Virus record (IMG/VR): IMGVR_UViG_3300037070_002093
Location: 1 to 25,549 of that record
Direction: 5' to 3' (one strand)
Length of the DNA stretch: 25,549 bases
Source of the DNA: a virus
Part shown: positions 1 through 25,549 of the stretch, in pieces
How positions within the stretch are numbered: the first letter of the stretch is position 1
How the letters are laid out: every line of letters starts with the position of its first letter
The notes under the pieces: generated by a model
Told to the model about the DNA's origin: nothing
Seen by the model: only the letters and a program-made list of their open reading frames with translations
The model's database searches: none
Position numbers and translations under genes: made by a program

Positions 1-1
1 G

Positions 2-112
2 CGCCCGTGGAAAGAGCTACCCTTGAACCCAGCGTGGGGGATGGGTGAGTTTTTAAGCATTGGCACCGGAGCTAAACACGGCCCTTGTTGGGGCACTATG
101 GTAGAGGAATGA
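2..112 (+). CDS. C-terminal end of a truncated gene, unknown function
   Basis: An open frame enters from the left edge (first full codon at base 2) and runs 36 codons to a TGA at 110-112. It has no internal start that would make it a separate gene of useful length. The visible residues are rich in Trp, Gly and Pro (it starts RPWKELPLNPAWGMGEF) and I do not recognise a family. Its stop overlaps an ATG at 109 as ATGA, the arrangement of translationally coupled phage genes. This supports it being the real upstream member of the plus-strand operon. Only the frame and the overlap are observed; function is unknown. Confidence 0.55.
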   Translation, partial: RPWKELPLNPAWGMGEFLSIGTGAKHGPCWGTMVEE

Positions 113-114
113 CT

Positions 115-471
115 ATGGACTTCAATGACAAGCTTGACGACATAACGATGGGCGAACTTATCAAAGAGATGGCTAACATGGCCCTAGAGCGCCTTCGTAT
201 TGAGGCACAACCCCAGCACAAAGGGCTGTTGGCCGCGAGTGAGGTAATGATTCCTCTCATTGCTAAGGACGCTGAGCACCTTAGCGCGACGTTAGGTTTC
301 GTGACTATGCTGTTTGCTGCGATGCCCTCGTTGCATCAGGCGACAGACGCGCTGGTGCATTCGACTAGGTTTCAATCGCGGAAGATGGCAGCGGAGTTTG
401 CGGCACAGGGCGGCGAGGACACCCCTGGCCCTAAAATTCTTACGATAAAGGTGCCGATGGCCCATGAGTAA
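115..471 (+). CDS. hypothetical phage protein (119 aa)
   Basis: Small, mostly helical-looking protein with no signal peptide and no recognisable motif. I chose the ATG at 115 because AGAGGA at 103-108 then lies at normal Shine-Dalgarno distance. The ATG at 109 overlaps the upstream TGA but sits directly against that ribosome site, so it is the alternative. The stop overlaps the next start (464) by 8 nt, so the two are likely co-translated. It belongs to the plus-strand operon with the HAD phosphatase and the DUF5664-like protein. A role linked to nucleotide metabolism would be an inference from neighbours only. Function unknown. Confidence 0.7.
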   Translation: MDFNDKLDDITMGELIKEMANMALERLRIEAQPQHKGLLAASEVMIPLIAKDAEHLSATLGFVTMLFAAMPSLHQATDALVHSTRFQSRKMAAEFAAQGGEDTPGPKILTIKVPMAHE

Positions 472-1069
472 ACCACACTTAAAGTTAGGCTTTGATATCG
501 ATGGCGTGCTGGGGGAGTTTAACCTTCCCCTAGCGGCGCGCATGGGGCGCACCGTAGCCCCTGACTGGGTGCCCTCGTGCTGGGATTACCCTCAACATGA
601 GTGGGGCATGAGTGAGGAAGAAGTTAAGGCTATGTGGCTGGGGATTATGGCAGATGAGAACTTCTGGTATAACGAGCCCGCGCTCTTAGGCGCTAAAGAT
701 TTACAATACGCGCTTGACCGTAATGGGGACGATGGCTATACCTTCGACCCTATCTACATCACGTCGCGCCCTGGAAACACAGCGTTTAGTCAAACCTATG
801 ATTGGCTGGACTATCATGGTTTGTTACCGGGCACCGTAATTGTTAGCTCTAAAAAGGGTGACTTGGTAAAGACTTTGAATATTGATTACTATGTAGATGA
901 CAAGCTTGAGAATTGCCTAGATGTGTTTGAGAAGACCGGGCGGAAACCGTATCTCTTGGACTATCCATACAATAGGCACTGCACGCCAGATGAGGCACTG
1001 AAAGTTCACCGTATCTCAAGTGTTCAGGAAATGTTTGACGACGTAGAGCGTTATACAAGGATTAAGTAA
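464..1069 (+). CDS. HAD-superfamily 5'-nucleotidase-like phosphatase
   Basis: A 201-aa soluble protein with the haloacid dehalogenase motifs in order. The nucleophile motif is D11-x-D13-G-V near the N-terminus (GFDIDGVLGEF). Motif II is T100-S101-R-P-G after a beta strand, the motif III lysine is K130/K131 (SSKKGD), and the acidic motif IV is D145-D146 (YYVDDK). This layout matches the 5'(3')-deoxyribonucleotidase-type HADs often carried by phages, which remove phosphate from (deoxy)nucleoside monophosphates with Mg2+ in the cytoplasm. Length is typical. It overlaps the upstream gene by 8 nt and is followed at once by the next ATG. Together with the DUF5664-like protein downstream it suggests control of the nucleotide pool. 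The family call is firm. The exact substrate is inferred and could be another phosphoester. Confidence 0.82.
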   Translation: MSKPHLKLGFDIDGVLGEFNLPLAARMGRTVAPDWVPSCWDYPQHEWGMSEEEVKAMWLGIMADENFWYNEPALLGAKDLQYALDRNGDDGYTFDPIYITSRPGNTAFSQTYDWLDYHGLLPGTVIVSSKKGDLVKTLNIDYYVDDKLENCLDVFEKTGRKPYLLDYPYNRHCTPDEALKVHRISSVQEMFDDVERYTRIK

Positions 1070-1282
1070 ATGGCTAAAAGAGGACGTAAGGCGAAGAATA
1101 GAGTAACAATCCAGCTTGTTATTGATGGGGTGGCATACGTAGACACGATGGTCTATGACTCTCCAGAGCAACTAGTGAATGCGCTGCATGCGACTATCCC
1201 TAACATTAACAAGCTGCTTGTTCCAGACGCACCAGAGGTTATAGAAGTTGTGTCGGAGGGTTCAGATGCCCACAGCGGATAA
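1070..1282 (+). CDS. small basic N-terminus protein (70 aa), unknown
   Basis: The ATG follows the TAA of the HAD gene directly, with AAGG about 9 nt upstream. The first residues (MAKRGRKAKNR) are strongly basic and resemble an AT-hook or nucleic-acid-binding tail. The rest is a small acidic beta/alpha domain ending in a Ser/Gly-rich tail. The stop lies inside the following gene, which begins at 1266 (17-nt overlap). No family recognised. A DNA- or RNA-binding role would be only a guess from the basic tail. Confidence 0.68.
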   Translation: MAKRGRKAKNRVTIQLVIDGVAYVDTMVYDSPEQLVNALHATIPNINKLLVPDAPEVIEVVSEGSDAHSG

Positions 1283-1646
1283 CACTAAACCAGTAATGAA
1301 GCAATATCAGACAGGAGCGATAAGAAGTGCTGAAGGCAATAAGTTTGATGTTAAGGGTTTTCTCAGTCCGCATGCTCTTGAAGCTTATTTCAGCTACATG
1401 CATAGCCATCGAAAGCAAGCCGACGGACGTATCCGTGGTTCCGATAATTGGAAGCAGGGAATTGATGAGAAGGATTACGAGCGCTCGCTTGTTAGACATG
1501 CCCATGATTTCCACCGCGCCTGTGAGGGAGCGGAAGTCAAGGACAAAGACAGTGGTGCATTAGTCACCAAACAAGAGTTAGTGTGCGCTATGATTTTTAA
1601 TGCGATGGGATTGCTACATGAGTATAACAAACCTAACAAAGTCTAA
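1266..1646 (+). CDS. DUF5664-like protein (dATP/dGTP diphosphohydrolase N-terminal-like)
   Basis: A 126-aa protein started at ATG 1266, with GGAGGG at 1256-1261 as a good ribosome site. The pattern TGAIR...KFD...LSP.ALE.Y..YM..HR...DG..R.SDNW..GI, then SL.RH..D, and late C.M.FN.MG.LHE is the signature I associate with DUF5664. Some phage members of that family are annotated as the N-terminal part of dATP/dGTP diphosphohydrolases. If so, it would cleave purine dNTPs to dNMPs, which the HAD phosphatase upstream could dephosphorylate. The classical MazG ExxE/ExxD metal motifs are not obvious, so activity is uncertain. It overlaps genes on both sides (1266-1282 and 1618-1646), as in a coupled operon. 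Family assignment is from memory of the pattern, not from a search. Confidence 0.6.
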   Translation: MPTADNTKPVMKQYQTGAIRSAEGNKFDVKGFLSPHALEAYFSYMHSHRKQADGRIRGSDNWKQGIDEKDYERSLVRHAHDFHRACEGAEVKDKDSGALVTKQELVCAMIFNAMGLLHEYNKPNKV

Positions 1647-1776
1647 ACACGGGAAGTCATGCCCTGAGTGCTCACGGCGCGCGGGGAGGCTGATATTTAA
1701 GCTTTACGAAGACTTCGGCCTTCGTAAGGTAAGAGGGATGACTGTGCTTCAGTCGTGGTGTAAGGCGTGTCGCTAG
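1618..1776 (+). CDS. 52-aa zinc-ribbon protein
   Basis: A short reading frame starting at ATG 1618, inside the end of the previous gene, and ending at TAG 1774-1776. It carries two CxxC knuckles, C15-P-E-C18 and C48-K-A-C51, about 29 residues apart, with S-W just before the second. This is the typical spacing of small zinc ribbons. The pattern near the second knuckle (LQSWCKAC) resembles the N-terminal zinc-binding part of phage HNH/endonuclease VII-type proteins, but no HNH core follows. The coupled start and the intact knuckles argue that it is real despite its size. Likely zinc-binding, perhaps nucleic-acid-binding; partner unknown. Confidence 0.6.
   Translation: MSITNLTKSKHGKSCPECSRRAGRLIFKLYEDFGLRKVRGMTVLQSWCKACR
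1703..1728 (+). other. stem-loop inside the zinc-ribbon gene
   Basis: CTTACGAAG-type arms at 1703-1711 and 1720-1728 are perfect inverted repeats (9 bp) around an 8-nt loop containing CTTCGG. The sequence is coding, so it may be chance. It is also the last strong hairpin before the convergence with the minus-strand genes and could pause or protect the plus-strand transcript. No U-tract follows. Confidence 0.35.
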
Positions 1777-1811
1777 AACGGCACCTGCGGCCTCTCAGCC
1801 CTTCTCGCCTC

Positions 1812-2174
1812 TCAGGACGCCACAAAGCCTAACAAAGCGCTGTAGACAGACCCTCCCCTCTTAAGCCTCGCGGTAGCTAAATACTCACCGCGGGGCATTC
1901 CTTTAAATAACCTAACAAATTGAGCTTGGGTGGTAGGTGGGCCTACTTCCCAGCATCCGCTAGAGAAGTAGTCTTCACCCTCAACACTGAGGCAGGCTTG
2001 CCTGTTGTCGGGGTGGGTGGGAATTATAATACTTAATTCTATTTGGTGGGGTTTCTGGTGGGAGAGAATAGTTATGCTAATAGGACGCAGGGTGTCTACG
2101 GCGCGGGTTTGGCTAGTTAGGAGGGTTAGAGACAGAACCAGCCCTAGAATTAGTGTGCGTAATACCCGAACCAT
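1812..2174 (-). CDS. small secreted protein with signal peptide (120 aa)
   Basis: The N-terminus has two Arg residues followed by a long Leu/Val/Ile run (about residues 7-20), then a small-residue cleavage site near QTRA at 22-25. This is a classical Sec signal peptide. The mature part (~95 aa) is beta-rich, has two cysteines (C61 and C73) able to form one disulphide after export, and ends in a hydrophobic strand. It is the last minus-strand gene before the convergent plus-strand operon. It is separated from the C39-like peptidase gene by 138 nt containing a hairpin and a possible promoter of its own, so it may be expressed separately. Family not recognised. It could act in the periplasm or at the cell surface, for instance in lysis or superinfection exclusion, but that is inference. 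Confidence 0.68.
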   Translation of the reverse strand: MVRVLRTLILGLVLSLTLLTSQTRAVDTLRPISITILSHQKPHQIELSIIIPTHPDNRQACLSVEGEDYFSSGCWEVGPPTTQAQFVRLFKGMPRGEYLATARLKRGGSVYSALLGFVAS

Positions 2175-2207
2175 AGACGTGGTGTCCCTGCTGCTTCAAG
2201 CAAGGTA

Positions 2208-2216
2208 ATTGTAGCA
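2208..2216 (-). promoter_or_regulatory. possible extended -10 promoter for the secreted-protein gene
   Basis: On the minus strand the sequence reads TGCTACAAT, an extended -10 (TGn) followed by TACAAT, 5 of 6 to the sigma70 consensus. It lies about 35 nt before the ATG at 2174. No good -35 is seen at 17 nt upstream. The position in the only real intergenic gap of this region supports it, but it is a weak call. Confidence 0.35.
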
Positions 2217-2270
2217 TAGTTTTAGGGAGGCTGTAGGAGGCTCTAGGGGGCCTCAGGAGGGCGGGGAATA

Positions 2271-2302
2271 GTGAGGTATAGGGGAGACCCTAAAAACCTC
2301 AC
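2271..2302 (-). terminator. hairpin after the C39-like peptidase gene, possible terminator
   Basis: Two-tier stem-loop: GTGAGG (2271-2276) pairs with CCTCAC (2297-2302), and inside it TAGGG (2279-2283) pairs with CCCTA (2288-2292) around a 4-nt loop. It starts about 10 nt beyond the stop of the 2313-2702 gene on the minus strand, where a terminator of the long late operon would be expected. The minus strand continues TATTCCCC, so there is no clean U-tract. It may instead stabilise the 3' end. The rest of the 2175-2312 gap is a purine-rich (plus strand) stretch with GGAGGCT copies. Confidence 0.42.
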
Positions 2303-2312
2303 CACGGGGCTG

Positions 2313-2702
2313 CTAGTCAATCACAAGCATGGTTGCGGGGCGGCACTTGGCGGCTTTGCAGTATTCCTCTGGGCTCATGGCTGTTTTGTCGCTGGGGTCG
2401 ATAATAAGCCCCTCTTTAACCACAACCCAGTGCCCAGCAGGCGCACAAAGGCCATGATTTAGCCCCAGGATACCCGTAGCGCCGTCAAGATAGCCATCCT
2501 TACGGTAGACTCTGCGGGTCTTAAACTTATATAACTTAAGCACTTGCTCCATTTGGCGTAGGATTAGCCCCCGCTTTTTAAGCTTCGGGTCATCCACGTT
2601 CTTCAGCACGGTAGTCAGCACACCCTCGTAAGGGATGTCTAGGAGCATGGCTATAGAGGCAACACCACAGTCCCAATCTTTACGCTGGTTAATTACCTTC
2701 AT
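2313..2702 (-). CDS. C39-like papain-fold cysteine peptidase
   Basis: A 129-aa protein with the layout of the peptidase C39-like family: Q6 (oxyanion-hole glutamine) then D11-C12-G-V-A at the start of a helix (DCGVASIAMLL), H91 in GHWVVV, and D102-P after the next strand. These form a plausible Cys-His-Asp triad. There is no signal peptide, ABC transporter or leader substrate nearby, so it is not a bacteriocin exporter component. Stand-alone C39-like proteins are common in phages and their targets are mostly unknown. Its ATG overlaps the upstream TGA as ATGA. Last gene of the late operon before the hairpin. Fold and catalytic residues are well supported; whether it processes virion proteins, cuts host proteins or acts as a transglutaminase-like enzyme is unknown. 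Confidence 0.75.
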   Translation of the reverse strand: MKVINQRKDWDCGVASIAMLLDIPYEGVLTTVLKNVDDPKLKKRGLILRQMEQVLKLYKFKTRRVYRKDGYLDGATGILGLNHGLCAPAGHWVVVKEGLIIDPSDKTAMSPEEYCKAAKCRPATMLVID

Positions 2703-3334
2703 TTATGGGTATCCATGTATCTCTGTTGTTCTTTCCACTTCTCCTGATAGAAGTCGTGGTCTTTTCGCATGTCTTGCTGCCCGTATTTCTTAGACTGCTC
2801 CACTAAGTTCTTTATTTCCTGCATCTTAGCTTGGTTAGCCATGACTTCTTTAAGGCGCTGAAGCTCTAACTCACCTAGCGAACCACCCATACCACGCAAG
2901 CCGGGACCAGCACCAAACTGAGATTGAATTCTGCGCTCAAACAGCGCATAACCCACTAAGCCCTGAACTTCCCAGTCCACAATTTTATAGGTCACACCCT
3001 CTAATAGAAGCGTGTCGCATAGGGGAGAGACGATTAAGTCGCGGCGTCCGTCTGAGAACTGGACGTGCCAGAGCTTAGACCTGTCTTCTAGCTCTGGAAG
3101 CTCTACGGGCGCGGGTTCGATAGGTTTAGGAACTAGCATTTTAGCTCTACAATCATCTTCATAGGCAGCTAACAATAGCTGCTTAACTTCAGTGGCATTT
3201 TGGCACTTCTGCATTACATTCATAGTAACCTGTGTGCCTTGGGGGAAGCTGATAGTCCATGTGTTAAAGTCTTGCGTGGCCCCAACACCAGTTAACCACT
3301 TACCCACGTCCCAATAGTCCGTAAATTTTCCCAT
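2699..3334 (-). CDS. hypothetical phage protein (211 aa)
   Basis: Start chosen at ATG 3334, preceded on the minus strand by GGGAAGGTGG, a good ribosome site. It overlaps the end of the phosphoesterase gene by 35 nt. The first ~75 residues look globular. Residues ~75-140 form a second beta-rich segment (WHVQFSDGRRDL...). The C-terminal third is highly charged and helical (Lys/Glu/Gln-rich), probably a coiled coil. No catalytic motif is visible and I recognise no family. Sandwiched between two enzymes, it may be an accessory or virion-associated protein. Confidence 0.65.
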   Translation of the reverse strand: MGKFTDYWDVGKWLTGVGATQDFNTWTISFPQGTQVTMNVMQKCQNATEVKQLLLAAYEDDCRAKMLVPKPIEPAPVELPELEDRSKLWHVQFSDGRRDLIVSPLCDTLLLEGVTYKIVDWEVQGLVGYALFERRIQSQFGAGPGLRGMGGSLGELELQRLKEVMANQAKMQEIKNLVEQSKKYGQQDMRKDHDFYQEKWKEQQRYMDTHK

Positions 3335-4079
3335 TGATTACCACCTTCCCGTTGACCAACACAGGAACATAGTCAGAGAACGTGCCATCTTTATTGACCC
3401 AGCCATAGTTGAAGCCCTGGAGCCACGGATTGGGCTTTCCCTCGTTATATACAGGGTCTCGGCGGCAGAGGCACGGCACACAGACCGCCGTGTGGCTCAT
3501 CTCCATGTCTAGGGCACGTTTCGGCGTGTGGACCTGATAAGTATGATAGTGACCAAAGCGGATATTACGAGCGTATAAATCATAAGCCTGCTTCGCTATG
3601 TGGGTTGCGTTGCCCTTGAGGGTGTCGCCGTGGATGAATGTGAGCTTACCAAGCTTAACACTTTCGCCCTGTTGGGTAATCTTCCACGGGCTGCCTACCA
3701 TGTGCTTGATGTCTAGCGCACCCTCAAGCATGGGGCTCTCAATCACTACGTCGTTAAGCCAGTCTTCGTGGTTGCCGATGATGTAGTGATACTGTTTCGC
3801 GTTAAGCTTTTCAAGGGGCGCGAGCACTTCATCATGACACTCTTCCATGTCACGGTAGATTCTCAGCCCCTCTACGTTCCCCGGCTTGTGTTTGTTGTGG
3901 TGTGACACAGCGCCACAGTCTAGGATATCGCCGCCTAAAATAACAACATCCGGCTTAAAATCAGCCGCAAACTCAAGGGCTGTATTTATCGCGCGGATGT
4001 CGTGAATGGGGCGCTTATGGCGAGATTTCGTATATTCGTAGCCCCAGTGGATATCGTATAAAGCTAGGAATTTAGTCAT
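3300..4079 (-). CDS. calcineurin-like metallophosphoesterase
   Basis: A 259-aa protein with all five blocks of the calcineurin-like phosphoesterase fold: D9-x-H11 at the end of the first strand, G-G-D51, G-N103-H104-E, H150-G-D and G-H177-x-H179. These residues bind two divalent metal ions. Family members hydrolyse phosphomono- or diesters. Phage members include nucleic-acid or nucleotide phosphatases and RNA-end-trimming enzymes, so the substrate is open. It sits between the lysis genes and the C39-like peptidase at the distal end of the late operon, an unusual place for a DNA-metabolism enzyme. The start follows the lysis peptidase by 9 nt, with no clear ribosome site. The fold call is firm. 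Confidence 0.85.
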   Translation of the reverse strand: MTKFLALYDIHWGYEYTKSRHKRPIHDIRAINTALEFAADFKPDVVILGGDILDCGAVSHHNKHKPGNVEGLRIYRDMEECHDEVLAPLEKLNAKQYHYIIGNHEDWLNDVVIESPMLEGALDIKHMVGSPWKITQQGESVKLGKLTFIHGDTLKGNATHIAKQAYDLYARNIRFGHYHTYQVHTPKRALDMEMSHTAVCVPCLCRRDPVYNEGKPNPWLQGFNYGWVNKDGTFSDYVPVLVNGKVVINGKIYGLLGRG

Positions 4080-4088
4080 AGCTAGAGC

Positions 4089-4433
4089 TTACGCATATGT
4101 TGTGCCTTTCTTAGGCTGGACGTGGATATGTGCGTTGGGTGTCCCTGGCATCTCATAGATAACAGTGAACTTAGCCCCTAGGGAGTCTTCTAGTTGGATG
4201 ATAAACTTGGCTAGCTGTTTTTTGTCAGTAAAATTCCTGACACGGATATCCAGCGCCTCGTTGGAGTAGTGGCGGGAAGTGGCAGCGTGGGTTGAGTCAT
4301 TCGCGGACGTGATAACTACTTCATCCACATAGTCAATACTGCGCGCGAGTTCAAACAACACAACCAGCATGGTAATCATAGCTGGCGTGAATTCTTTGAA
4401 CCTAACGCTATCCTTAACTGTAAGCTTTGCCAT
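4089..4433 (-). CDS. M15-type peptidase, endolysin candidate
   Basis: A 114-aa protein from ATG 4433 (a TTG at 4466 is possible but would extend further into the holin-like gene). It shows the zinc-site pattern of M15/VanY-type D,D- or L,D-peptidases: S-R-H55-x6-D62 (HYSNEALD), the glutamate E94 after a strand (VIYE) and a late H102-x-H104 (AHIHVQP). Such enzymes cut peptide cross-links of peptidoglycan and serve as endolysins in many phages. There is no signal peptide and no separate wall-binding domain, so it would rely on the holin-like protein encoded just upstream (20-nt overlap). Single-domain size is usual for phages of Gram-negative hosts, which is a hint only. A virion-associated muralytic role is the main alternative. 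Confidence 0.78.
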   Translation of the reverse strand: MAKLTVKDSVRFKEFTPAMITMLVVLFELARSIDYVDEVVITSANDSTHAATSRHYSNEALDIRVRNFTDKKQLAKFIIQLEDSLGAKFTVIYEMPGTPNAHIHVQPKKGTTYA

Positions 4434-4635
4434 TGCCGTTAGCCGCCCTGTCTTGCTTGTTTTCAATACGTGTCAGGCGTTCTACGATACCCTGAAACTT
4501 AACATCAAGAAGCTTCTCAAGGTCTGCTGACGACTGCTCACGAAGCGCTTGGAGCGTGTTGACGCGCCCCTCTAGTCTAATTCCCCACACAATTACACCC
4601 ACTACTGTTAAACCTATAGTAATATACTCGCCCAT
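4414..4635 (-). CDS. holin-like small membrane protein (73 aa)
   Basis: The N-terminus has one hydrophobic segment (about residues 4-19, YITIGLTVVGVIVWGI) followed by a heptad-like helix with the motif LTRIENKQDR and a short polar C-terminal tail. This single-span plus coiled-coil plan is common in phage holins and related lysis proteins. The gene overlaps the peptidase gene by 20 nt, forming a compact lysis cassette: this protein would permeabilise the inner membrane and release the endolysin. No spanin pair is recognisable nearby. The function rests on topology and context, not on sequence homology that I can verify. Confidence 0.68.
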   Translation of the reverse strand: MGEYITIGLTVVGVIVWGIRLEGRVNTLQALREQSSADLEKLLDVKFQGIVERLTRIENKQDRAANGNGKAYS

Positions 4636-4644
4636 AGTCGCCCA

Positions 4645-7241: not shown

Positions 7242-7253
7242 AGTAATTACTTA

Positions 7254-9314: not shown

Positions 9315-9324
9315 AATGAAACTC

Positions 9325-15921: not shown

Positions 15922-15924
15922 CTA

Positions 15925-16814: not shown

Positions 16815-16823
16815 TCATAAATC

Positions 16824-17489
16824 CTATGTGTCGTGAGTGTAGCGGTATTGGAAGCCCTTGCCCTGCTCCCTGCGGAAGCGTTCATACGCTTTCAATACTG
16901 GTGCGAAGGTTTCTTTTGCAAACTCCATCAGGTCGCCCTGAGGGTCATCTAGCCCTAACGCGATAAGCTTTACCGCGAACGTAGCAACAGGGAGTCTGGC
17001 GATATCTTTATATGCGAATGTCCCGCTCGCTGTAATATTCGAGGCTGATGCGAAGCCATACCAGCGTAGATTATAGACATCGTTAGGAACAGGGCTGAAA
17101 TAAATGTTAGTTCCATCGGTCCAGTAGCTCTGAGGGCGACCTGTTGACGCTGTGTCAGGGGAAGGCCAGTAGTTGCTATTGGCATGTCCCCCGACGTTAT
17201 AGAGAGGCGTTAGGTCGTAGGTTGGGCGGGACGTGATAGGGTCGAGGAACTGTATCTTATCGAGACGTAGAAGGGTGCTAGGAAAGGCCACAGTCTCCGT
17301 AGAGGCCACTGTAGCGATGCTCCCCACCCCTGAGCCCATCACACCAGGAATCTGCGCTAGAAGCGACTCTAGGTGGTCCTGTGCAACGTTCAGCGCGATA
17401 AGGCCCTTGACAACCCCGGTTTCACCAGCCTGAAGCTGTAGCTCGGGGTCAAGAATTTCCATTGTATCTAGTAAATCTTGGCCCGTCAT
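16824..17489 (-). CDS. head-tail adaptor/connector protein (221 aa)
   Basis: The N-terminal helices (GQDLLDTMEIL, GLIALNVAQDHLESLLAQIPG) are followed by a beta segment with ATVASTETVAFPSTLLRLDKI. A second segment, RPQSYWTDGTNIYFSPVPN and YNLRWYGFAS, follows, and a basic helical C-terminus ends in RYRYTHDT-like residues. This architecture is that of the phage adaptor proteins that bind under the portal and connect it to the tail (T7 gp11-/P22 gp4-like in role). Length is typical. GAGG lies 7 nt before the ATG. Position downstream of capsid genes and before tail genes agrees. Role assigned with fair confidence from pattern and context. Confidence 0.72.
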   Translation of the reverse strand: MTGQDLLDTMEILDPELQLQAGETGVVKGLIALNVAQDHLESLLAQIPGVMGSGVGSIATVASTETVAFPSTLLRLDKIQFLDPITSRPTYDLTPLYNVGGHANSNYWPSPDTASTGRPQSYWTDGTNIYFSPVPNDVYNLRWYGFASASNITASGTFAYKDIARLPVATFAVKLIALGLDDPQGDLMEFAKETFAPVLKAYERFRREQGKGFQYRYTHDT

Positions 17490-17502
17490 TTACTACCTCT
17501 AA

Positions 17503-18081
17503 CTAGCTGTGGTGTTTTGAAAACTTGCTGCCTGTAGATTTGCCGCGCATGCTGACTTGGATACGCGTGTGGTCCCACTGCTCAGACGCCATGTCCCTAA
17601 CATCCTGACGACGGTGGTTTACGCGGTCTGCGTATTCTTTATCTTGCTCGGCTTCGATGTTGGCCCAGTAGGCTGCCATGCTGTGGTATTTACGTCCGCA
17701 TCGGTCCCACGAGCGTGCGAGGGTGCGAGCGTCTAGAGGCATATAAGACTCATCATCCCCATACTGAACGACTAGAATCAACTTCCAGCCCTTCATACGG
17801 GGATGCTTAATCTCGTTAGGCATGTGTGCCCAGACAACCCAACGTTGGTTGACCGGATGCCAGATAACTTCGAAACGGGGGTCTATTTCTTTGATTTTTG
17901 CCCTGAAATCTTCAGGTGCGAACTTAATACCGAAGCTAGCTGGCGTGAAATGGTGCCAGCTTTGCTCCGGTTTAGACTCCCCGCGTCGGTAGGGTATGGG
18001 GTCGATAGGAATCTGACGCCCATAGTTTAGTTTACCGCCGTTAATTAACTTCTCTGTCCCCGGCTCCGAATATAGTTCCAT
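17503..18081 (-). CDS. hypothetical late protein (192 aa)
   Basis: A polar protein, rich in Trp, His and Arg, with a central alpha/beta part (FEVIWHPVNQRWVVWAH, WKLILVVQYGDDE). Its helical C-terminus (YWANIEAEQDKEYADRV) ends in a Lys/His/Ser tail. No known motif. The start at 18081 lies 41 nt inside the end of the upstream gene, with only a weak ribosome site. It belongs to the head operon between the capsid gene group and the adaptor, so a head-completion or assembly function is possible. Not recognised. Confidence 0.62.
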   Translation of the reverse strand: MELYSEPGTEKLINGGKLNYGRQIPIDPIPYRRGESKPEQSWHHFTPASFGIKFAPEDFRAKIKEIDPRFEVIWHPVNQRWVVWAHMPNEIKHPRMKGWKLILVVQYGDDESYMPLDARTLARSWDRCGRKYHSMAAYWANIEAEQDKEYADRVNHRRQDVRDMASEQWDHTRIQVSMRGKSTGSKFSKHHS

Positions 18082-18733
18082 ATGCTACTCTGTGGTCGTC
18101 TGGATTCTTACGGTCGGACTTCATGTGCTTAGCCATCTGCGCTTTCGCAATGTTAAGCTTTGAATGGTCGTCTTTGTTGAAGTTCACTGTGTATTGACAC
18201 ACAGGGCAAGCCATCTTGCCGTTGTCCATGTCAATTACGAGGTCAGTGTTGACCCGGTGCGCGGCAGCCTTACGACGTGCCCACTCGGGAATATACTTCG
18301 CACCGATACCACCTGATAGCGGAACACCTAATTCCTTACGTGCGCCGTTTTCATCGAAGTAGGTTTTTACCATATGCGCGTCAGACCCTACGCCGTGCAT
18401 ACGTGCTCGGCCGCGTGTGTCCCACTCGTATACGGTAGGCGGATATGGGGCACCCTTACGCTTGTCGCGCTCCCATTCGTGAATTGAGTCTACATACGTA
18501 ACGATTGAACTCTTCAAAGCCTCTACACCAATCCACGCTTCCCCTTCGTGCTTTTCAAGCTCGATAAGCTCGAATACACGCTGAAGCACTGGTCGGACAG
18601 CCTTCGGGTTGACGTTAACTGGTGTGCCCTTGTTGAGCGCCACGTTAGGACTCTCTCCAAGATGCTCGGCCATGAACAAGTTTTCTTCTATCGAATATAG
18701 CGCCGGTTCGAAACGGGTAATTGTGCCCTTCAT
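18041..18733 (-). CDS. Cys/His zinc-finger-like late protein (230 aa)
   Basis: A mostly helical N-terminal half (VRPVLQRVFELIELEKHEG) is followed by a polar region. Near the C-terminus there is a finger-like motif, C176-P-V-C179, followed by H203 and H214 on a helix and loop (AQMAKHMKSDRKNPDDH). This fits a treble-clef or C2H2-type zinc site. AAGGA precedes the ATG by 5 nt. Such a protein in the head operon, between a decoration-like protein and the adaptor, is unusual; it might bind DNA or act as an assembly factor. I do not recognise a named family. Confidence 0.66.
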   Translation of the reverse strand: MKGTITRFEPALYSIEENLFMAEHLGESPNVALNKGTPVNVNPKAVRPVLQRVFELIELEKHEGEAWIGVEALKSSIVTYVDSIHEWERDKRKGAPYPPTVYEWDTRGRARMHGVGSDAHMVKTYFDENGARKELGVPLSGGIGAKYIPEWARRKAAAHRVNTDLVIDMDNGKMACPVCQYTVNFNKDDHSKLNIAKAQMAKHMKSDRKNPDDHRVAYGTIFGAGDREVN

Positions 18734-18746
18734 ATGTCCTTATCTA

Positions 18747-19169: not shown

Positions 19170-19185
19170 AATTTTTATGCCTCTT

Positions 19186-19221
19186 AAAAGAAAAGGGTAG
19201 ATAGGTTCCCCTACCTACCCT
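19186..19221 (-). terminator. intrinsic terminator after the major capsid gene
   Basis: On the minus strand an 11-bp stem (arms 19210-19220 and 19195-19205, one G-U pair) closes a GGAA tetraloop and is followed by TTTTCTTTT (19186-19194). It starts 20 nt after the capsid stop codon. Stem, tetraloop and U-tract are all textbook. It would end most transcripts started in the scaffold leader while letting some continue into the tail genes. Confidence 0.9.
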
Positions 19222-19240
19222 AATTCAATCCGCTTAAGCA

Positions 19241-20542: not shown

Positions 20543-20579
20543 TGAAAAACAAGTCCTAATTGTTCAAAGTGTGGGACTC

Positions 20580-21497
20580 TTAGTCAGGGATGCCAAACGC
20601 GGCAGCCATTGAGTCGGCAACCTGTGCGGGAGACTTGAAGCCTTCGTTAAGCTTGCCACCGGGGACCGCGTTTCCGCCTCCACCAGCAATCAAGCGCTTA
20701 CGGGCCTTCTCCGCTGCCTGCTTGTCCATCGCGCGAAACATATTACGGAGCTTATCAAGCTTCGTCTTTGCTGCGGAATCAAACTGTGAATCCCAATCCT
20801 CACCATCGTGAGATGAGTAAAGGTCTTCCAGGTATTCCATCGCCGCTGGGTCGTCAGGTAGCTCTAGAGACTGTCTTGTAGTTCCTAGACGCTGCTTTAG
20901 GGCGCTCATGCCAGACGTCTGTTGCATCTGCTGAATAACGCCGCTTAGCTTCTGTAGCTCACCGTGAAGTTGGGTAATTACCTTATCGCGTTCGCCAATC
21001 GCTGCTACGATAGGCTGAATCCCGCGCTGTTGAATGGCTTCTAGGATGCTAGCAGCGGTTTTACCGTTGATATAATCCTGTCCGCGCAATTCTGCGAGTG
21101 GGTCTTGCTGTTGCTGTCCCCCACCTGCGTTTCTAGCTTCGGCCATCTTACGGGCCTCACCTAGCAACTTCTCTGTGGCTGCTGCCTTCTCGGCTTCCCA
21201 AGCTTTCACCGCTTCCGCGTGCGCTTGGGTTTTCTTCGTGAATTCTGACTGCGGGATATAACCACGCTGATAGTCAGCCCACTTGACGGGGTTAGCCTGC
21301 CCCGGAACCCTAACCATTGAGTCGGGTGTTAGGTCGAAGATTGAGCCTCCACCGGCCCCACCTTGCCCACCACCTTGGGGTGCCTGCTGCTGTTGCTGCT
21401 GGCCCCCGCCCTGCTGCCCGCCTTGGGGTGCGCCACCTTGAGCGCCGCCACCTTCAAGCTGATAGAAGGGTAGAGAAATACGTGTAAAACGGAACAT
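20580..21497 (-). CDS. scaffold protein (305 aa)
   Basis: The N-terminal ~55 residues include a Gln/Gly-rich low-complexity stretch (GGQQGGGQQQQQQAPQGGG). Next comes a motif VPGQANPVKWADYQRGYIPQSEFTKKTQ, the 'GYi.qs.fTkKTQ' element common in phage scaffolds. The body is a long charged helix region (AVKAWEAEKAAATEKL, ...) and a C-terminal helix with KSPAQVADSMAAAFGI, likely the capsid-binding part. It is located directly upstream of the major capsid gene, as usual. It is the first gene after the leader/promoter at 21500-21680. AAAGG precedes the ATG by ~10 nt. Acts inside the procapsid during assembly and then leaves. Confidence 0.82.
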   Translation of the reverse strand: MFRFTRISLPFYQLEGGGAQGGAPQGGQQGGGQQQQQQAPQGGGQGGAGGGSIFDLTPDSMVRVPGQANPVKWADYQRGYIPQSEFTKKTQAHAEAVKAWEAEKAAATEKLLGEARKMAEARNAGGGQQQQDPLAELRGQDYINGKTAASILEAIQQRGIQPIVAAIGERDKVITQLHGELQKLSGVIQQMQQTSGMSALKQRLGTTRQSLELPDDPAAMEYLEDLYSSHDGEDWDSQFDSAAKTKLDKLRNMFRAMDKQAAEKARKRLIAGGGGNAVPGGKLNEGFKSPAQVADSMAAAFGIPD

Positions 21498-21538
21498 TTA
21501 GTTATTGCCTTTCGGTCGAGTGATTTCGGAGGGCTAAC

Positions 21539-21568
21539 AACAGGTTATTGACGGGCGTCAGTCCTGTT
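21539..21568 (-). promoter_or_regulatory. two-tier stem-loop in the scaffold/capsid mRNA leader
   Basis: AACAGG (21539-21544) pairs with CCTGTT (21563-21568), and inside it TGACG pairs with CGTCA around two bases. It lies ~40-70 nt upstream of the scaffold ATG in the untranslated leader. No U-tract follows on either strand, so it is more likely an mRNA stability or translation-control element than a terminator. A second small hairpin, TTCGC/GCGAA, lies further upstream at about 21590-21605. Confidence 0.5.
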
Positions 21569-21622
21569 TGCTTATTCTTAGGTCGGGTTCGCCTGAGAGC
21601 GAAACTGAATTAAAGGATAGGC

Positions 21623-21643
21623 GCAATAAATATTACTTATTGC
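21623..21643. promoter_or_regulatory. inverted repeat at the predicted transcription start
   Basis: GCAATAA (21623-21629) and TTATTGC (21637-21643) are perfect 7-bp inverted repeats around 7 nt. The palindrome sits exactly where transcription from the adjacent promoter should begin. It could be an operator for a phage regulator or give the mRNA a protective 5' hairpin. No regulator gene is visible in the window. Confidence 0.5.
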
Positions 21644-21649
21644 AATTTG

Positions 21650-21679
21650 ATATTAGCACGCTTTTGATTAGCGTGTCAA
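21650..21679 (-). promoter_or_regulatory. sigma70-like promoter for the scaffold-capsid unit
   Basis: Minus strand: TTGACA (-35, plus positions 21674-21679, 6 of 6), an 18-nt spacer, then TAATAT (-10, 21650-21655, 4 of 6). The predicted start is near 21643. The -35 overlaps the last codons of the 71-aa gene. It is the best promoter in the window and lies in the only sizeable gap of the head operon (21498-21667), upstream of the most strongly needed proteins. Confidence 0.65.
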
Positions 21680-21883
21680 TTCCGCTAGGATACCTTCTGT
21701 CTTAAGACGTTGATATAGTTTGATATCGCGGTCGGTTATTTTGCCCTGAAGCCTCTTTAGGTCGTCTATTGACTCTTGGATGACTTCAACCCTAGCGGCG
21801 GTTGTGGCTTCAAGGCGAACGATGTCTTCTTCGTAACGGGTAATACGGTCTTGGATAAGGGATTCAACCCCTGCTGCGTCCAT
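21668..21883 (-). CDS. small coiled-coil protein between portal and scaffold (71 aa)
   Basis: A short, highly charged helical protein (YEEDIVRLEATTAARVEVIQ, DLKRLQGKITDRDIKLYQRL) with clear heptad spacing and no Cys. The ATG overlaps the portal stop as TAATG, so the two are translationally coupled. Small coiled-coil proteins at this place may help portal or scaffold assembly. No family recognised. The last codons overlap the -35 of the following promoter. Confidence 0.65.
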   Translation of the reverse strand: MDAAGVESLIQDRITRYEEDIVRLEATTAARVEVIQESIDDLKRLQGKITDRDIKLYQRLKTEGILAELTR

Positions 21884-24135
21884 TACAATACCTGCTCATC
21901 TGTAATGCCCTGCTTTAGTAAGTCTTCAAACTGGGGCTGTGTTTTGACTTGCTCTAGAAGCTGCCCCATAACCGCGTCTACGGTCGCTGAGGCGGCTTGT
22001 GCGCTGCTCTGCTGCACGGCTTGAGCTACGGCACCCTGCACCATCTGGGACTGCATAAACGCCTGCTGCTGCTGTGCTTTCTGTTGCATGAACGCTGAGT
22101 GCTGCTGCCAGCGCTGTTGGAACGCCTGCTGGACCTGTGGGGTCGCTGTTAGGTGTTCCATTGTGGCCATTGCTGCCTCTAGTTCGTCCATCATGGCTGC
22201 ATGGTCCCAGAACGGCATAACCGGGGGCACGTATTCGCCCTTTGTTAGGCGCTCGTTGATTTCGTTCTGTAGCTTACGATATTGGGCGGCGCGCGATATG
22301 CGGCCGGTATCACCCACCTTCGCATCCATCGCTAGCTTTGATTTATCAAGCTGGCCAGTGCGTTCGTCCATGTAAAGGATGCCTAGGGGCGACTGGAGAC
22401 GTTCGATAATTGCACCCTCACGCACAGCGCGTAGCTCTGGGATGAAACTACCGCGTTCTATTCTGATGCTGTAGTTCGTCCCTGACTTTAGAACCTTATT
22501 GTTATAGAACTCTAGAACCTCATCCTGCATGTTCGCATCGGTGTAGTTCATCGTGCGAATTGGAGGGTAGAAGTCCTTAACTCTATTCAACCTCATCTGC
22601 TTAGCCGCGGCGAATTGTTCTCCCAAGTGCTCATAGAGATTATTCCACTCGGAATCCATAATCTCCTGAAGCATGGGAATAGCCATAGGCCCGCGCATCT
22701 GGCCGGGGAACTTTGACTGCTGGAACAAGTCAGCCCCGCCCGCTAGGTCGTTCAAGAGGTTCATGACTAGCTCAATACTCTTGATAAACCAACCCGGCAT
22801 TGCTGGGCCAGCGAGACGGTGCACCAAAGGCACACCCTGTTCATTTACGCTGTTTTCAATGGCTTCTGGGCTGTCGGGCGTAATGTCGGTGCGCTTAATT
22901 CCAGGGCCTAACAAAACCTTACCGTGGATGTTCGCGTTGGCTTCTTCGCCCATCTGGCTTAGGCGCTTGTTAAGGAACTTCTGGGGTGCCATCAGGTCAG
23001 TTACGTAGTCCTTCGTCCAGAAGGTTGTAGTCACTGGCTCTAGGTGGTAGTCCACTACGGGAACCTCTCCGTAAGGGTTCTCACCGTCGCGGAGAATCAT
23101 TTTAGATGGGATAAAGATAGTGTAGCGGCCCTTAGGGTATTTCTTCCCGGCTGGCTGGTAGCGATGCACCACGACGAACATATCTGGGTCGTCGTCCTCT
23201 GTGCTTCCCTGAAGCGCGGGAATCATGTCCTGCAAATCAAGCGCACCATGCGAAGGGCCTAGCTGGGTGAATTCAGTCGTGACAATCTTGATGTGTTCGT
23301 CCCCGCCCACTTCCTCAATCTTCATTAAGACTTCTTGGTTAGGCGAACCATCGACGTTGTAGCCGAAGTTTTCAACAACCCAACCCTTGGTTTTAAGCTC
23401 GGCAATGTAGATGCCTTGGTCAGGTGCTAGGTCAGCAACACTACGCACCCCGGCGTCAAGGAACACGTTTAGCGGGCCGTATACAGTAGACTGCACGTCA
23501 CCCACAACCTGTAGGTCTTCTATTACCTCAAAGTATTCCTTCGGCGCTCCCTGTTCAATGAGCATTTCAACTTCGCTCTCACTGAACTCCTGACCCGGCT
23601 GCTGACTGAAGCTGAACAACACTTCGTTCTGTTCGTTAAGCTTCGGCATGGCCTCCTGAGTGACGTTAGGCATCCAGGTTGTTACTTCGAACGCAACCCC
23701 GCCGTAGACGAGCCAGAAGAGAATTTCCCATGTGCGGCTAGGCTGCTTGACCTTGGCATCCAGGGCGCTGATAAGCCTATCAACTACTTCGGCATTGGCC
23801 CACGAAGCTACGTCCTGTTTGTCAGGGTTCGCCTTAAACTTACCGTTCAAGGCGGCTGTGGAAATGCGGCCCATGAACTTCTTCGCGCGCTGCGCCAGCA
23901 AGTTGAAGACTAAATACAGCTTATTGTCTTCGTTCTCGCGGACTGTTAGGTTTCGCGGCCCTTCGCTTAAGTGGTGCTCACCAAAGAAAAAAGCGAGTGC
24001 TCTTAACACCCGCAGTTCTACTGAGAGCCCCGACTTGCGAGACTTCTGATTTTGTAAGCGCTGATAATCCTTGGTAAGTTCGTCTAGAACTCCGTCAGGA
24101 CTTTGAAGCTGCTCGTCCGTGTATTCGTATGGCAT
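21883..24135 (-). CDS. portal protein (750 aa)
   Basis: By size, position before the scaffold and capsid genes, and pattern this is the podovirus portal. Its N-terminal helical part includes KLYLVFNLLAQRAKKFMGRI and ILFWLVYGGVAFEV. A wing/stem region contains VFLDAGVRSVADLAP and the segment GRYTIFIPSKMILRDGENPYG. A helical C-terminus is rich in Gln and Ala (QQAFQQRWQQHSAFMQQK), resembling the barrel or tail of large podoviral portals. Portals form a 12-mer ring at one vertex, through which DNA is packed and released, and bind the terminase. The start lies only 13 nt after the CCA end of tRNA-Thr and has no Shine-Dalgarno sequence. No terminase gene is in the window; it should lie to the right. 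Confidence 0.85.
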   Translation of the reverse strand: MPYEYTDEQLQSPDGVLDELTKDYQRLQNQKSRKSGLSVELRVLRALAFFFGEHHLSEGPRNLTVRENEDNKLYLVFNLLAQRAKKFMGRISTAALNGKFKANPDKQDVASWANAEVVDRLISALDAKVKQPSRTWEILFWLVYGGVAFEVTTWMPNVTQEAMPKLNEQNEVLFSFSQQPGQEFSESEVEMLIEQGAPKEYFEVIEDLQVVGDVQSTVYGPLNVFLDAGVRSVADLAPDQGIYIAELKTKGWVVENFGYNVDGSPNQEVLMKIEEVGGDEHIKIVTTEFTQLGPSHGALDLQDMIPALQGSTEDDDPDMFVVVHRYQPAGKKYPKGRYTIFIPSKMILRDGENPYGEVPVVDYHLEPVTTTFWTKDYVTDLMAPQKFLNKRLSQMGEEANANIHGKVLLGPGIKRTDITPDSPEAIENSVNEQGVPLVHRLAGPAMPGWFIKSIELVMNLLNDLAGGADLFQQSKFPGQMRGPMAIPMLQEIMDSEWNNLYEHLGEQFAAAKQMRLNRVKDFYPPIRTMNYTDANMQDEVLEFYNNKVLKSGTNYSIRIERGSFIPELRAVREGAIIERLQSPLGILYMDERTGQLDKSKLAMDAKVGDTGRISRAAQYRKLQNEINERLTKGEYVPPVMPFWDHAAMMDELEAAMATMEHLTATPQVQQAFQQRWQQHSAFMQQKAQQQQAFMQSQMVQGAVAQAVQQSSAQAASATVDAVMGQLLEQVKTQPQFEDLLKQGITDEQVL

Positions 24136-24148
24136 TTAGTATGAGAAA

Positions 24149-24222
24149 TGGAGCCGGTGGAAGGAATTTAACCCTCATCACAGCCTTACAAGGGGTGCAT
24201 TCTAACGTTGAACTACACCGGC
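24149..24222 (-). tRNA. tRNA-Thr(UGU)
   Basis: 74 nt including encoded CCA. Acceptor GCCGGTG/CACCGGC is perfect, anticodon loop CTTGTAA gives UGU, T-stem GAGGG/CCTTC. The anticodon stem has one C-C mismatch (29-41), and the T-loop is TTAAATT, lacking the usual C56. Reads ACA (and ACG by wobble). Last tRNA of the cluster, 13 nt before the portal gene. Confidence 0.88.
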
Positions 24223-24227
24223 ATTTT

Positions 24228-24302
24228 TGGAGCGCCCTGCGGAACTCGAATCCGCTTCGCATGGTTTGGAAGACCAGCAGTTACCACATACACCAAGGGA
24301 GC
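24228..24302 (-). tRNA. tRNA-Gly(UCC), degenerate
   Basis: 75 nt with CCA and discriminator U. Acceptor GCTCCCT/AGGGCGC has a T-C mismatch at 3-70; D-stem poorly paired; anticodon stem four pairs around loop CTTCCAA, giving UCC. T-arm GCGGA TTCGAGT TCCGC is normal. A shifted reading with anticodon CCA (Trp) is possible but pairs worse. Likely still a tRNA, perhaps weakly functional. Confidence 0.72.
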
Positions 24303-24338
24303 TTTGATGCGTAGCTTAGTGTCCTATTCTACGCTAGA

Positions 24339-24415
24339 TGGCCCGAACCGCTGGATTCGAACCAGCCTACTCCCCGTCTTCAGCGGGGCGCTTGAACCTG
24401 CTCAGCTACATTCGG
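24339..24415 (-). tRNA. tRNA-Phe(GAA)
   Basis: 77 nt with CCA. Anticodon stem CCCCG/CGGGG is perfect, loop CTGAAGA gives GAA (G at 37 instead of A). T-arm GCTGG TTCGAAT CCAGC is normal. Acceptor CCGAATG/GGTTCGG has a G-G at 7-66. Discriminator G, where bacterial tRNA-Phe usually has A. The 24303-24338 spacer carries a 6-bp inverted repeat (GCGTAG/CTACGC). Confidence 0.85.
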
Positions 24416-24420
24416 ATTTC

Positions 24421-24512
24421 TGGTGGGAAGGGCAGGATTTGAACCTGCGGTGTTTACCCTTTGGGTATCCGGGTTACAGCCGGACTGCTTCAGCCTCTCG
24501 CAACACCCGCCC
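24421..24512 (-). tRNA. tRNA-Tyr(GUA), long variable arm
   Basis: 92 nt with CCA and discriminator A. Loop CTGTAAC gives GUA; anticodon stem TCCGG/CCGGA is perfect. A long variable arm (TACCC/GGGTA) marks the bacterial class II tRNA-Tyr. T-arm GCAGG TTCAAAT CCTGC. Acceptor GGGCGGG/CCTTCCC has a C-T mismatch and a G-U. Confidence 0.92.
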
Positions 24513-24517
24513 ACAAT

Positions 24518-24579
24518 GAGGCACCCATGATTAATGACCTTTGGGTTTTACCGGCCGGAACGGTCATGCGGCTGGCCTC
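24518..24579 (-). ncRNA. structured spacer in the tRNA cluster
   Basis: The gap between tRNA-Leu and tRNA-Tyr (24513-24584) is spanned by GAGGC/GCCTC arms (24518-24522 and 24575-24579) enclosing ATGACC/GGTCAT (24534-24539 and 24562-24567). No tRNA T-arm or CCA is found. It may be a decayed tRNA, a small RNA or a processing signal. Low confidence. Confidence 0.3.
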
Positions 24580-24584
24580 TAAAT

Positions 24585-24672
24585 TGGTCCCCAAGAAAGG
24601 ATTTGAACCTTCACGAGTTATTAGCTCACTGGTTTCTAAGACCAGCGCGGCTGCCAGTTACGCCACTCGGGG
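24585..24672 (-). tRNA. tRNA-Leu(UAG)
   Basis: 88 nt with CCA. Class II with long variable arm; D-arm GCG...CGC typical of bacterial tRNA-Leu; anticodon stem CTGGT/ACCAG with loop CTTAGAA gives UAG; acceptor CCCCGAG/CTTGGGG; T-loop TTCAAAT. Reads CUA (and CUG/others by wobble). CUA codons are frequent in the genes of this window, so it likely supports late translation. Confidence 0.94.
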
Positions 24673-24673
24673 A

Positions 24674-24749
24674 TGGGTTGATTGGTGGAACTTGCATCCA
24701 CTTCAGGCACCTTCACAGGGTGCTGGTAAGCTACTTCACCGTCAACCAA
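24674..24749 (-). tRNA. tRNA-His(GUG), atypical
   Basis: 76 nt with CCA. Anticodon stem GCACC/GGTGC perfect, loop CTGTGAA gives GUG. Acceptor TTGGTTG/CAATCAA pairs fully (one G-U), with C73. The base before position 1 is U, so the G-1 that pairs with C73 in bacterial tRNA-His is missing. Position 8 is A and the T-loop is TGCAAGT. Only 1 nt separates it from tRNA-Leu. Confidence 0.82.
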
Positions 24750-24752
24750 ACT

Positions 24753-24827
24753 TTAGGGCCGTCTGTTATATAAATCCATGAAATACGCTACAGACAACCC
24801 TATTAAAATAGCTAACACTACAAACAT
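24753..24827 (-). CDS. possible 24-aa membrane micro-protein inside the tRNA cluster
   Basis: The 79-nt gap between tRNA-Ala and tRNA-His is almost filled by one frame: ATG at 24827-24825, two bases after the CCA of tRNA-Ala, to TAA at 24753-24755. It encodes a hydrophobic segment (MFVVLAILIGLSVAYFM) and a polar, arginine-containing tail (DLYNRRP), a plausible single transmembrane span. There is no ribosome site, since the upstream sequence is the tRNA itself, so translation would need a leaderless start after tRNA processing. May be chance. Confidence 0.35.
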   Translation of the reverse strand: MFVVLAILIGLSVAYFMDLYNRRP

Positions 24828-24828
24828 A

Positions 24829-24903
24829 TGGTGGACTCTAAGGGAATTGAACCCTTACATTCTGGTTGCAAGCCAGACATGCTCCCGTTATCATCAAGAG
24901 CCC
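24829..24903 (-). tRNA. tRNA-Ala(UGC)
   Basis: 75 nt with CCA and A73. Anticodon stem TCTGG/CCAGA, loop CTTGCAA gives UGC. Acceptor GGGCTCT/AGAGTCC contains the G3-U70 pair that is the main identity element for alanyl-tRNA synthetase. T-loop TTCAATT. Reads GCA and neighbours. Confidence 0.94.
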
Positions 24904-24904
24904 G

Positions 24905-24978
24905 TGGAGGACTGTAGTGGAGTTAAACCACCCTGCGAAGGGTTGCAGCCTTCTGTCTAATCGCCTGACTCACAGCCC
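24905..24978 (-). tRNA. tRNA-Cys(GCA)
   Basis: 74 nt with CCA and U73, as in bacterial tRNA-Cys. Anticodon stem GAAGG/CCTTC, loop CTGCAAC gives GCA. Acceptor GGGCTGT/ACAGTCC also has G3-U70, an alanine-type feature. T-loop TTTAACT lacks C56. One nucleotide from tRNA-Ala, with a similar acceptor stem, hinting at divergence from a common copy. Confidence 0.9.
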
Positions 24979-24982
24979 GTAT

Positions 24983-25057
24983 TGGTATTCGCGGTAGGAA
25001 TTGAACCCACCTAGCCGGGTTCGTAGCCCGGTGCATAATCCTATCTGCCACGCGAAT
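24983..25057 (-). tRNA. tRNA-Arg(ACG)
   Basis: 75 nt with CCA and A73. Acceptor ATTCGCG/CGCGAAT and anticodon stem CCGGG/CCCGG are perfect; loop CTACGAA gives ACG, expected to become ICG by the host deaminase and read CGU/CGC/CGA. T-stem GTGGG/CCTAC, T-loop TTCAATT. Confidence 0.94.
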
Positions 25058-25067
25058 GTCTAACTAA

Positions 25068-25154
25068 TGGCGGAAAGAGGGAGATTCGAACTCCCGAAGC
25101 TTTTACACTCAGAATCCTTAGCGGGGACCACCCTCGACCGACCGGACTCTTTCC
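25068..25154 (-). tRNA. tRNA-Ser(GCU), C33 variant
   Basis: 87 nt, class II, with CCA and G73. Acceptor GGAAAGA/TCTTTCC perfect, T-arm GGGAG TTCGAAT CTCCC perfect, long variable arm. Anticodon loop CCGCTAA gives GCU but has C instead of the near-universal U at 33. Reads AGU/AGC. Confidence 0.9.
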
Positions 25155-25168
25155 GTAAACTTACTAAA

Positions 25169-25252
25169 TGGCGGAAGATGCAGGAGTCGAACCCGCTAGG
25201 CTTTTACACCCGGCTGTTTTCAAGACAGTGCCGCACCGTTGCGCTACCTTCC
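25169..25252 (-). tRNA. tRNA-Ser(UGA)
   Basis: 84 nt, class II, with CCA and G73. Acceptor GGAAGGT/ATCTTCC, loop CTTGAAA gives UGA, T-arm GCGGG TTCGACT CCTGC. The anticodon stem has an A-C at 27-43. The variable arm contains TGTAAAAGC, also present in the neighbouring tRNA-Ser(GCU), so the two probably share ancestry. Reads UCA and neighbours. Confidence 0.92.
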
Positions 25253-25300
25253 GTAAAATCAATGGACTGTGGATGTCATTTCACGTTGCGTTAATTCGCA

Positions 25301-25336
25301 TTGTAGCTTATGCCCCTCAAAAGGAGGCGGCTACAA
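25301..25336 (-). ncRNA. stem-loop in the widest tRNA spacer
   Basis: The 117-nt spacer 25253-25369 between tRNA-Ser and tRNA-Gln holds no frame longer than a few codons. It contains a strong hairpin: TTGTAGC (25301-25307) pairs with GCTACAA (25330-25336), enclosing a second stem of CCTC/GAGG type around A-rich bases. No U-tract on either side and no tRNA features. Possible processing signal or small RNA. Confidence 0.4.
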
Positions 25337-25369
25337 GGTCGAACACCCAGGAGTCTAAACTGTTAAGAT

Positions 25370-25443
25370 TGGCCGACGTTAGTGGATTCGAACCACTGCC
25401 AAGAGCTTCAAAGGCTCTTGTGCTGCCATTACACCAAACGCCA
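25370..25443 (-). tRNA. tRNA-Gln(UUG)
   Basis: 74 nt with CCA and G73. Anticodon stem AGAGC/GCTCT, loop CTTTGAA gives UUG. The acceptor begins with U1 opposite G72, a weak first pair as in bacterial tRNA-Gln. T-arm AGTGG TTCGAAT CCACT. First tRNA of the visible cluster in transcription order. Confidence 0.92.
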
Positions 25444-25446
25444 GTA

Positions 25447-25549
25447 TTAACTTAACCGCTTACTAATAGCGATGAGAGCAAAACCTAAGCCAAGGAAAGC
25501 TACACTCGTTAGGATGCCCAAGAAGAACCCGAAATTTTGTGGTGAATAT
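25447..25549 (-). CDS. C-terminus of a small membrane protein (partial)
   Basis: A frame enters from the right edge and ends with TAA at 25447-25449. The 33 visible residues contain a long hydrophobic segment (GFFLGILTSVAFLGLGFALI) followed by a basic tail (SKRLS), that is, one transmembrane span with a cytoplasmic-looking end. The stop lies 3 nt before the 5' end of tRNA-Gln, so the gene abuts the tRNA cluster and may share its transcript. The start is outside the window. Function unknown; small membrane proteins near phage tRNAs are usually uncharacterised. Confidence 0.55.
   Translation of the reverse strand, partial: YSPQNFGFFLGILTSVAFLGLGFALIAISKRLS

Follow-up and report, generated by a model that had tools for sequence, protein, structure and literature searches.

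According to a phage survey, GATC is under-represented without exception in the 46 phages infecting hosts with GATC endonucleases (PMC6286503), and the haloviruses of the HF1 group have lost tetramers as well as six-base palindromes (PMC7230728). A complete absence of GATC is reported for Streptococcus bovis phage F4 (cited in PMC7113391) and for phiX174, whose mutation rate is lowered when sites are added (PMC5014478). For GTAC, the host species of Helicobacter phage KHP30, H. pylori, has the GTAC-specific HpyAXII system of the PabI family (PMC4615327). A search of the literature for joint depletion of GATC and GTAC in phages brought up no paper beyond the HF1-group one (PMC7230728) and a general review. 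Here, we analyzed the IMG/VR virus fragment IMGVR_UViG_3300037070_002093 (positions 1 to 25,549), from which both words are missing. This whole stretch of 25,549 nt is referred to as the window, and on its gene content it is a piece of a tailed bacteriophage from an undescribed family.

An exact count gave 0 GATC and 0 GTAC on either strand of the window, where base composition predicts 98.4 of each. The sequence-only reading of this DNA, which had called both words absent against roughly 100 expected, was therefore right, and its observation is stronger than it claimed. A second-order Markov model still expects 59.8 GATC and 62.9 GTAC. As the loss itself already lowers this expectation to some extent, we turned to a stricter null, a permutation of synonymous codons over 7,432 codons that leaves the proteins and the codon usage unchanged. 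The 200 replicates contained 63.7 ± 6.2 GATC (minimum 49) and 81.0 ± 7.0 GTAC (minimum 65), compared with none observed, which is direct evidence of selection beyond codon usage. The other palindromic tetramers are present, as had been noticed earlier, and all 14 of them reach at least 0.66 of expectation. A like deficit is not seen in non-palindromic tetramers of equal composition: among the 24 tetramers in which every base occurs once, the next-lowest is ATCG, with 52 occurrences, and the next-rarest of all 256 tetramers is AAAA, with 38. GAAC and GTTC are also normal in the window (111/107 and 127/145, respectively), so that a general GWWC effect is ruled out and a relaxed GWWC recognizer was rejected.

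The manner in which the sites are avoided can be read from the codon contexts. Asp before a codon starting with C is always GAC (82/82), while elsewhere it is encoded by 243 GAC and 125 GAT. After a codon ending in G, ATC is never used for Ile (0/56, against 149/289 elsewhere), and Tyr is always TAT (25/25, against 120 TAC and 76 TAT elsewhere). Furthermore, GTA does not occur among 89 Val codons preceding a C-starting codon, compared with 126/419 elsewhere, and a codon ending in GT is found before none of 97 Thr codons. These absolute bans at potential GATC and GTAC sites are the trace of selection in a living genome.

For comparison, 40 kb of the HF1-group halovirus HF2 were run through the same script as a positive control. 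It contains 0 GATC and 0 CTAG and lacks 41 of 50 testable six-base palindromes, in line with the published loss in the HF1 group (PMC7230728). Like the window, HF2 belongs to a tailed virus from which two palindromic tetramers and many palindromic hexamers are entirely missing. In contrast, its pair is GATC and CTAG, its GTAC is near normal (136/187, observed/expected) and its host is haloarchaeal, whereas the window has fewer hexamers missing and a normal frequency of CTAG, a word depleted in many relatives of the window. HF2 is present in the phage collection and was matched neither by the nucleotide search nor by the capsid search with the window. A halophilic-archaeal virus, as the resemblance to HF2 might suggest, was set aside since the proteins are not uniformly acidic and the tRNA-Arg(ACG) is of the bacterial type, a tRNA that favors a bacterial host. 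KHP30, the second positive control, shares with the window a strong depletion of GTAC, but this word stays above zero (4/26) and GATC is not depleted (117/93); no kinship to the window family was seen. F4 and phiX174 share the complete absence of GATC. In contrast to the window, only GATC is reported absent from these two phages in the literature consulted, and phiX174 is discussed in terms of mismatch-repair avoidance.

The loss extends beyond the two tetramers. Fifteen six-base palindromes without an internal GATC or GTAC are absent from the window, namely CAGCTG, GGCGCC, CCATGG, GCCGGC, GGGCCC, CACGTG, TGCGCA, AGGCCT, CCCGGG, GTCGAC, GAGCTC, CTGCAG, ACCGGT, CTCGAG and TCCGGA, compared with 1.4 expected by chance. 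The earlier claim that exactly two palindromes were lost therefore holds for tetramers only. In coding DNA, 16 six-base palindromes are absent, compared with 1.8 ± 1.2 under the codon null. As a class, six-base palindromes stand at 0.70 of expectation in the window, while a palindromic core with mismatched ends stands at 1.10. From this class deficit and the normal counts of GAAC and GTTC, it follows that words with two-fold symmetry are the ones depleted, as is characteristic of type II restriction sites. Among degenerate words, CCWGG occurs 23 times against 65.8 expected (0.35), and GTWAC, GGWCC and TCSGA reach 0.40–0.54 of expectation. A scan for gapped motifs (3+2/2+3/3+3) resembling type I sites gave nothing outstanding. 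Two six-base words are over-represented in the window, AAGCTT (26 vs 12) and GATATC (11 vs 3).

To place the window among its relatives, the capsid protein was used as an anchor, with which 80 relatives were retrieved from IMG/VR. Together, scans with capsid, portal and tail proteins yielded about 190 loci of the same family, or 85 after removal of overlapping and near-identical pieces, of which 62 have at least 12 expected sites of each word and were considered testable. In these, the median ratio of observed to expected sites stands at 0.93 (GATC) and 0.96 (GTAC). GATC behaves in an all-or-none manner in the 62 loci: it is exactly zero or reaches 0.44 of expectation or more, with no intermediate. 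Partial depletion of GATC is found in a few shorter loci below the threshold (L106, 9/49; L099, 9/33). GATC is zero in the window, in IMGVR_UViG_3300050501_000117 and in L176 (IMGVR_UViG_3300010403_000318), and all three also lack GTAC. With observed/expected ratios near 1 in most related phages and of zero in three lineages, the deficit varies within the family and is not fixed by its composition. GTAC is lost or strongly reduced without loss of GATC in L006 (4/56), L007 (0/19) and L193 (0/16), and also in L008. With three lineages free of GATC and seven of 61 loci poor in GTAC, the pairing of both losses has a hypergeometric probability of about 1e-3, calculated by hand and uncorrected for phylogeny. 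A separate subgroup (L043, L044 and L045) has six-base palindromes at 0.14–0.18 of expectation overall and keeps GATC and GTAC.

The larger of the two double-zero relatives, both of them distant, IMGVR_UViG_3300050501_000117 (47.9 kb; loci L041/L081/L082, hereafter the L041 contig), contains 0 of 190 expected GATC and 0 of 98 expected GTAC over its full length, and the 4.2 kb L176 contains 0 of 20 and 0 of 15, respectively. The L041 contig belongs to the same family as the window, displays the same codon-context bans and shares ten absent six-base palindromes without internal GATC or GTAC. However, it is a distant relative (55% capsid identity) that keeps CCCGGG and ACCGGT, lacks AAGCTT, GAATTC and AGCGCT, and has a single CCWGG against 138 expected, so its restriction footprint is distinct from that of the window. 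In the capsid tree, branches with 100/99 support separate the window from L041. The tail-protein tree requires three changes for the double loss, and a grouping of any two or all three of the double-zero lineages is rejected by the approximately unbiased (AU) test with p values from 0.003 to 1e-55. The nearest relatives in this tree still have sites, both those of the window (L145, 81/53; L196, 116/107) and that of L176 (L148, 7/16). Since monophyly is rejected and the nearest relatives bear sites, the loss is convergent and occurred at least three times; read from the trees, this would fail only if the sites had returned many times to random frequency.

Combined, these results are best explained by a tailed phage genome which has been cleared of GATC and GTAC sites and of the sites of six-base cutters in avoidance of host restriction, a reading to which we assign a probability of roughly 0.8. 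Clearing would proceed via synonymous and non-coding substitutions. Each unprotected site would expose the incoming DNA to cleavage by the host enzyme and thereby lead to the loss of site-bearing genomes, and under sustained pressure the last sites would be removed too, bringing the count to zero. As the pair was lost independently at least three times, the likely agent would be a host group carrying both specificities, or a pair of systems exchanged among hosts. That the forbidden words are palindromic and were purged together with many six-base restriction sites makes restriction the best-supported cause, and the loss of GTAC alone in other relatives favors two agents. A shared group of hosts that carry both systems could lie behind the recurrence of the pair, as could a mobile pair of systems or a single agent acting on both words. 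The sequence-only reading had already proposed counter-selection by host restriction systems cutting GATC and GTAC. Selection for specific sites is borne out by the synonymous null, the codon bans and the three convergent losses, while the two separate systems of that proposal are an assumption, and a host methylation specificity matching the two words, which it also suggested, would be a prediction. The explanation invokes a known strategy, the avoidance of restriction sites, which in this undescribed family takes an extreme and convergent form.

Several points weigh against this explanation. Scans of 84,980 species genomes with capsid and portal proteins found no prophage relative that would point to a host and its enzymes. 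Some of the absent six-base words are rare or absent family-wide, and these may reflect an older or general avoidance of palindromes rather than the present host. In addition, the early region outside the window may hold a nuclease, a methyltransferase or anti-restriction genes of the phage itself.

A single host defense acting on both words, either a type IV nuclease directed at N6-methyladenine in GATC and GTAC or one relaxed enzyme, would turn the two losses into one adaptation. In its favor, each of the three lineages without GATC lacks GTAC as well, the losses recur jointly, and both words contain an adenine that known host enzymes methylate. Moreover, restriction of Dam-methylated DNA by Mrr in Haloferax is mentioned in the HF1-group paper (PMC7230728). 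However, the GTAC losses without GATC loss in L006, L007 and L193 demonstrate that the two are separable, the untouched GAAC and GTTC speak against a relaxed GWWC enzyme, and other tetramers of the N6-methyladenine type (CATG, CTAG and TCGA) are normal, which makes one defense for both words improbable. Similarly improbable is a form of it in which a single widespread and undescribed defense recognizes GATC and GTAC, but not GAAC or GTTC, and drove the repeated all-or-none loss; if true, the recurrence of exactly this pair would be the footprint of a new defense.

The phage could instead encode a nuclease that attacks the GATC and GTAC sites of host DNA while the phage genome, lacking such sites, stays intact, in the way of the restriction endonucleases of chloroviruses. 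The early genes of the window phage, where such a nuclease could reside, lie outside the 25.5 kb fragment. In the 47.9 kb L041 contig, however, a Pfam scan of the 46 open reading frames (ORFs) found no restriction endonuclease, HNH or methyltransferase family, and searches for D12, N6/N4 and C5 methyltransferases were negative in both this contig and the window. As the absent six-base palindromes would also be left unexplained, a phage-borne nuclease seems very unlikely. From the same searches, protection by a phage-encoded methyltransferase was rejected for the double-zero L041 contig. Elsewhere in the family, such genes occur in at least one relative that keeps GATC and GTAC: the L016 contig (G010) carries adjacent N6/N4 and C5 methyltransferase genes (25292-26856), which would represent a different anti-restriction route within the same phage family.

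Avoidance of GATC owing to Dam-directed mismatch repair with nicking by MutH, as proposed for phiX174, would require another reason for the loss of GTAC. The lowered mutation rate of phiX174 with added sites fits this proposal, but the phiX174 authors leave the cause of avoidance open (PMC5014478). The proposal accounts neither for GTAC nor for the 15 absent six-base palindromes, and GATC occurs at normal frequency in most family members, so this explanation is hardly tenable. Finally, although the contig is metagenomic, an artefact, whether of composition (codon bias or amino-acid content) or of technique (site-bearing fragments removed by the assembly or the library), is already contradicted and can be given almost no weight, since the codon permutation yields 64 and 81 sites, open frames run through every potential site and take the synonymous alternative every time, a choice that loss of fragments cannot produce, and relatives from the same collection have sites at normal frequency.

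If host restriction is the cause, the missing words are a readable record of the host restriction enzymes. The window would then point to a host, or a group of hosts, that restricts at GATC and at GTAC and has several six-base cutters, a prediction that would help host assignment for this uncultured phage family. Furthermore, distant lineages that repeatedly lost this one pair in an all-or-none manner would provide natural replicates for estimating how strong restriction must be to remove the last site. Beyond host prediction and these replicates, the mechanism would be an ordinary one.

The features of the window, which carries head and tail genes and ten tRNA genes with most genes on the minus strand, are listed below.

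Table 1. Annotated features of the window and the evidence for each assignment.
Feature	Coordinates	Strand	Evidence or remark
5' deoxynucleotidase-like gene (NT5C)	464..1069	+	Pfam PF06941, 1.2e-7
Metallophosphoesterase	3300..4079	-	Pfam PF00149, 1.8e-6; phrog_221, 1.9e-20
Conserved virion structural (tail) protein, 669 amino acids	9805..11814	-	phrog_3287, 2.5e-8; used for the double-loss tree
Three conserved head-tail region genes	16824-17489, 17503-18081, 18041-18733	-	Homologues in 55-56 family loci
Major capsid protein, 433 amino acids	19241..20542	-	PHROG phrog_14242 'major head protein', 1.9e-11; anchor of the family survey
Head scaffolding protein	20580..21497	-	phrog_3927, 2.1e-6
Probable portal protein, 750 amino acids	21883..24135	-	Inferred from size and place before the scaffold and capsid genes
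Ten tRNA genes (Thr, Gly, Phe, Tyr, Leu, Ala, Cys, Arg-ACG, Ser, Gln)	24149..25443	-	ARAGORN

The phage is probably lytic. The probable portal protein has no PHROG match and has homologues of about 50% identity in 60 relatives. Searches of phage records with the nucleotide sequence and the portal protein found no relative. The window capsid is about 25% identical to that of Manatee Spring podovirus, and the L041 capsid about 27% identical to that of Microbacterium phage Shocker. All three genes of the head-tail region (16824..18733) are free of GATC and GTAC, as is the tRNA cluster of about 1.3 kb (24149-25443), whose tRNAs apparently end in CCA. No tRNA genes were found in the relatives scanned (L001-L004, L006, L008, L012 and the L041 contig).

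In the L041 contig, a dATP/dGTP diphosphohydrolase-type domain (PF18909) and a nucleoside deoxyribosyltransferase domain (PF05014) are encoded. Families of these types are sometimes linked with altered DNA bases; beyond these two, further modification genes were not seen in this contig. One ORF of 578 amino acids in the same contig (L081:10211-11947) joins a uracil-DNA-glycosylase domain (PF03167) and a DNA polymerase match (phrog_17).

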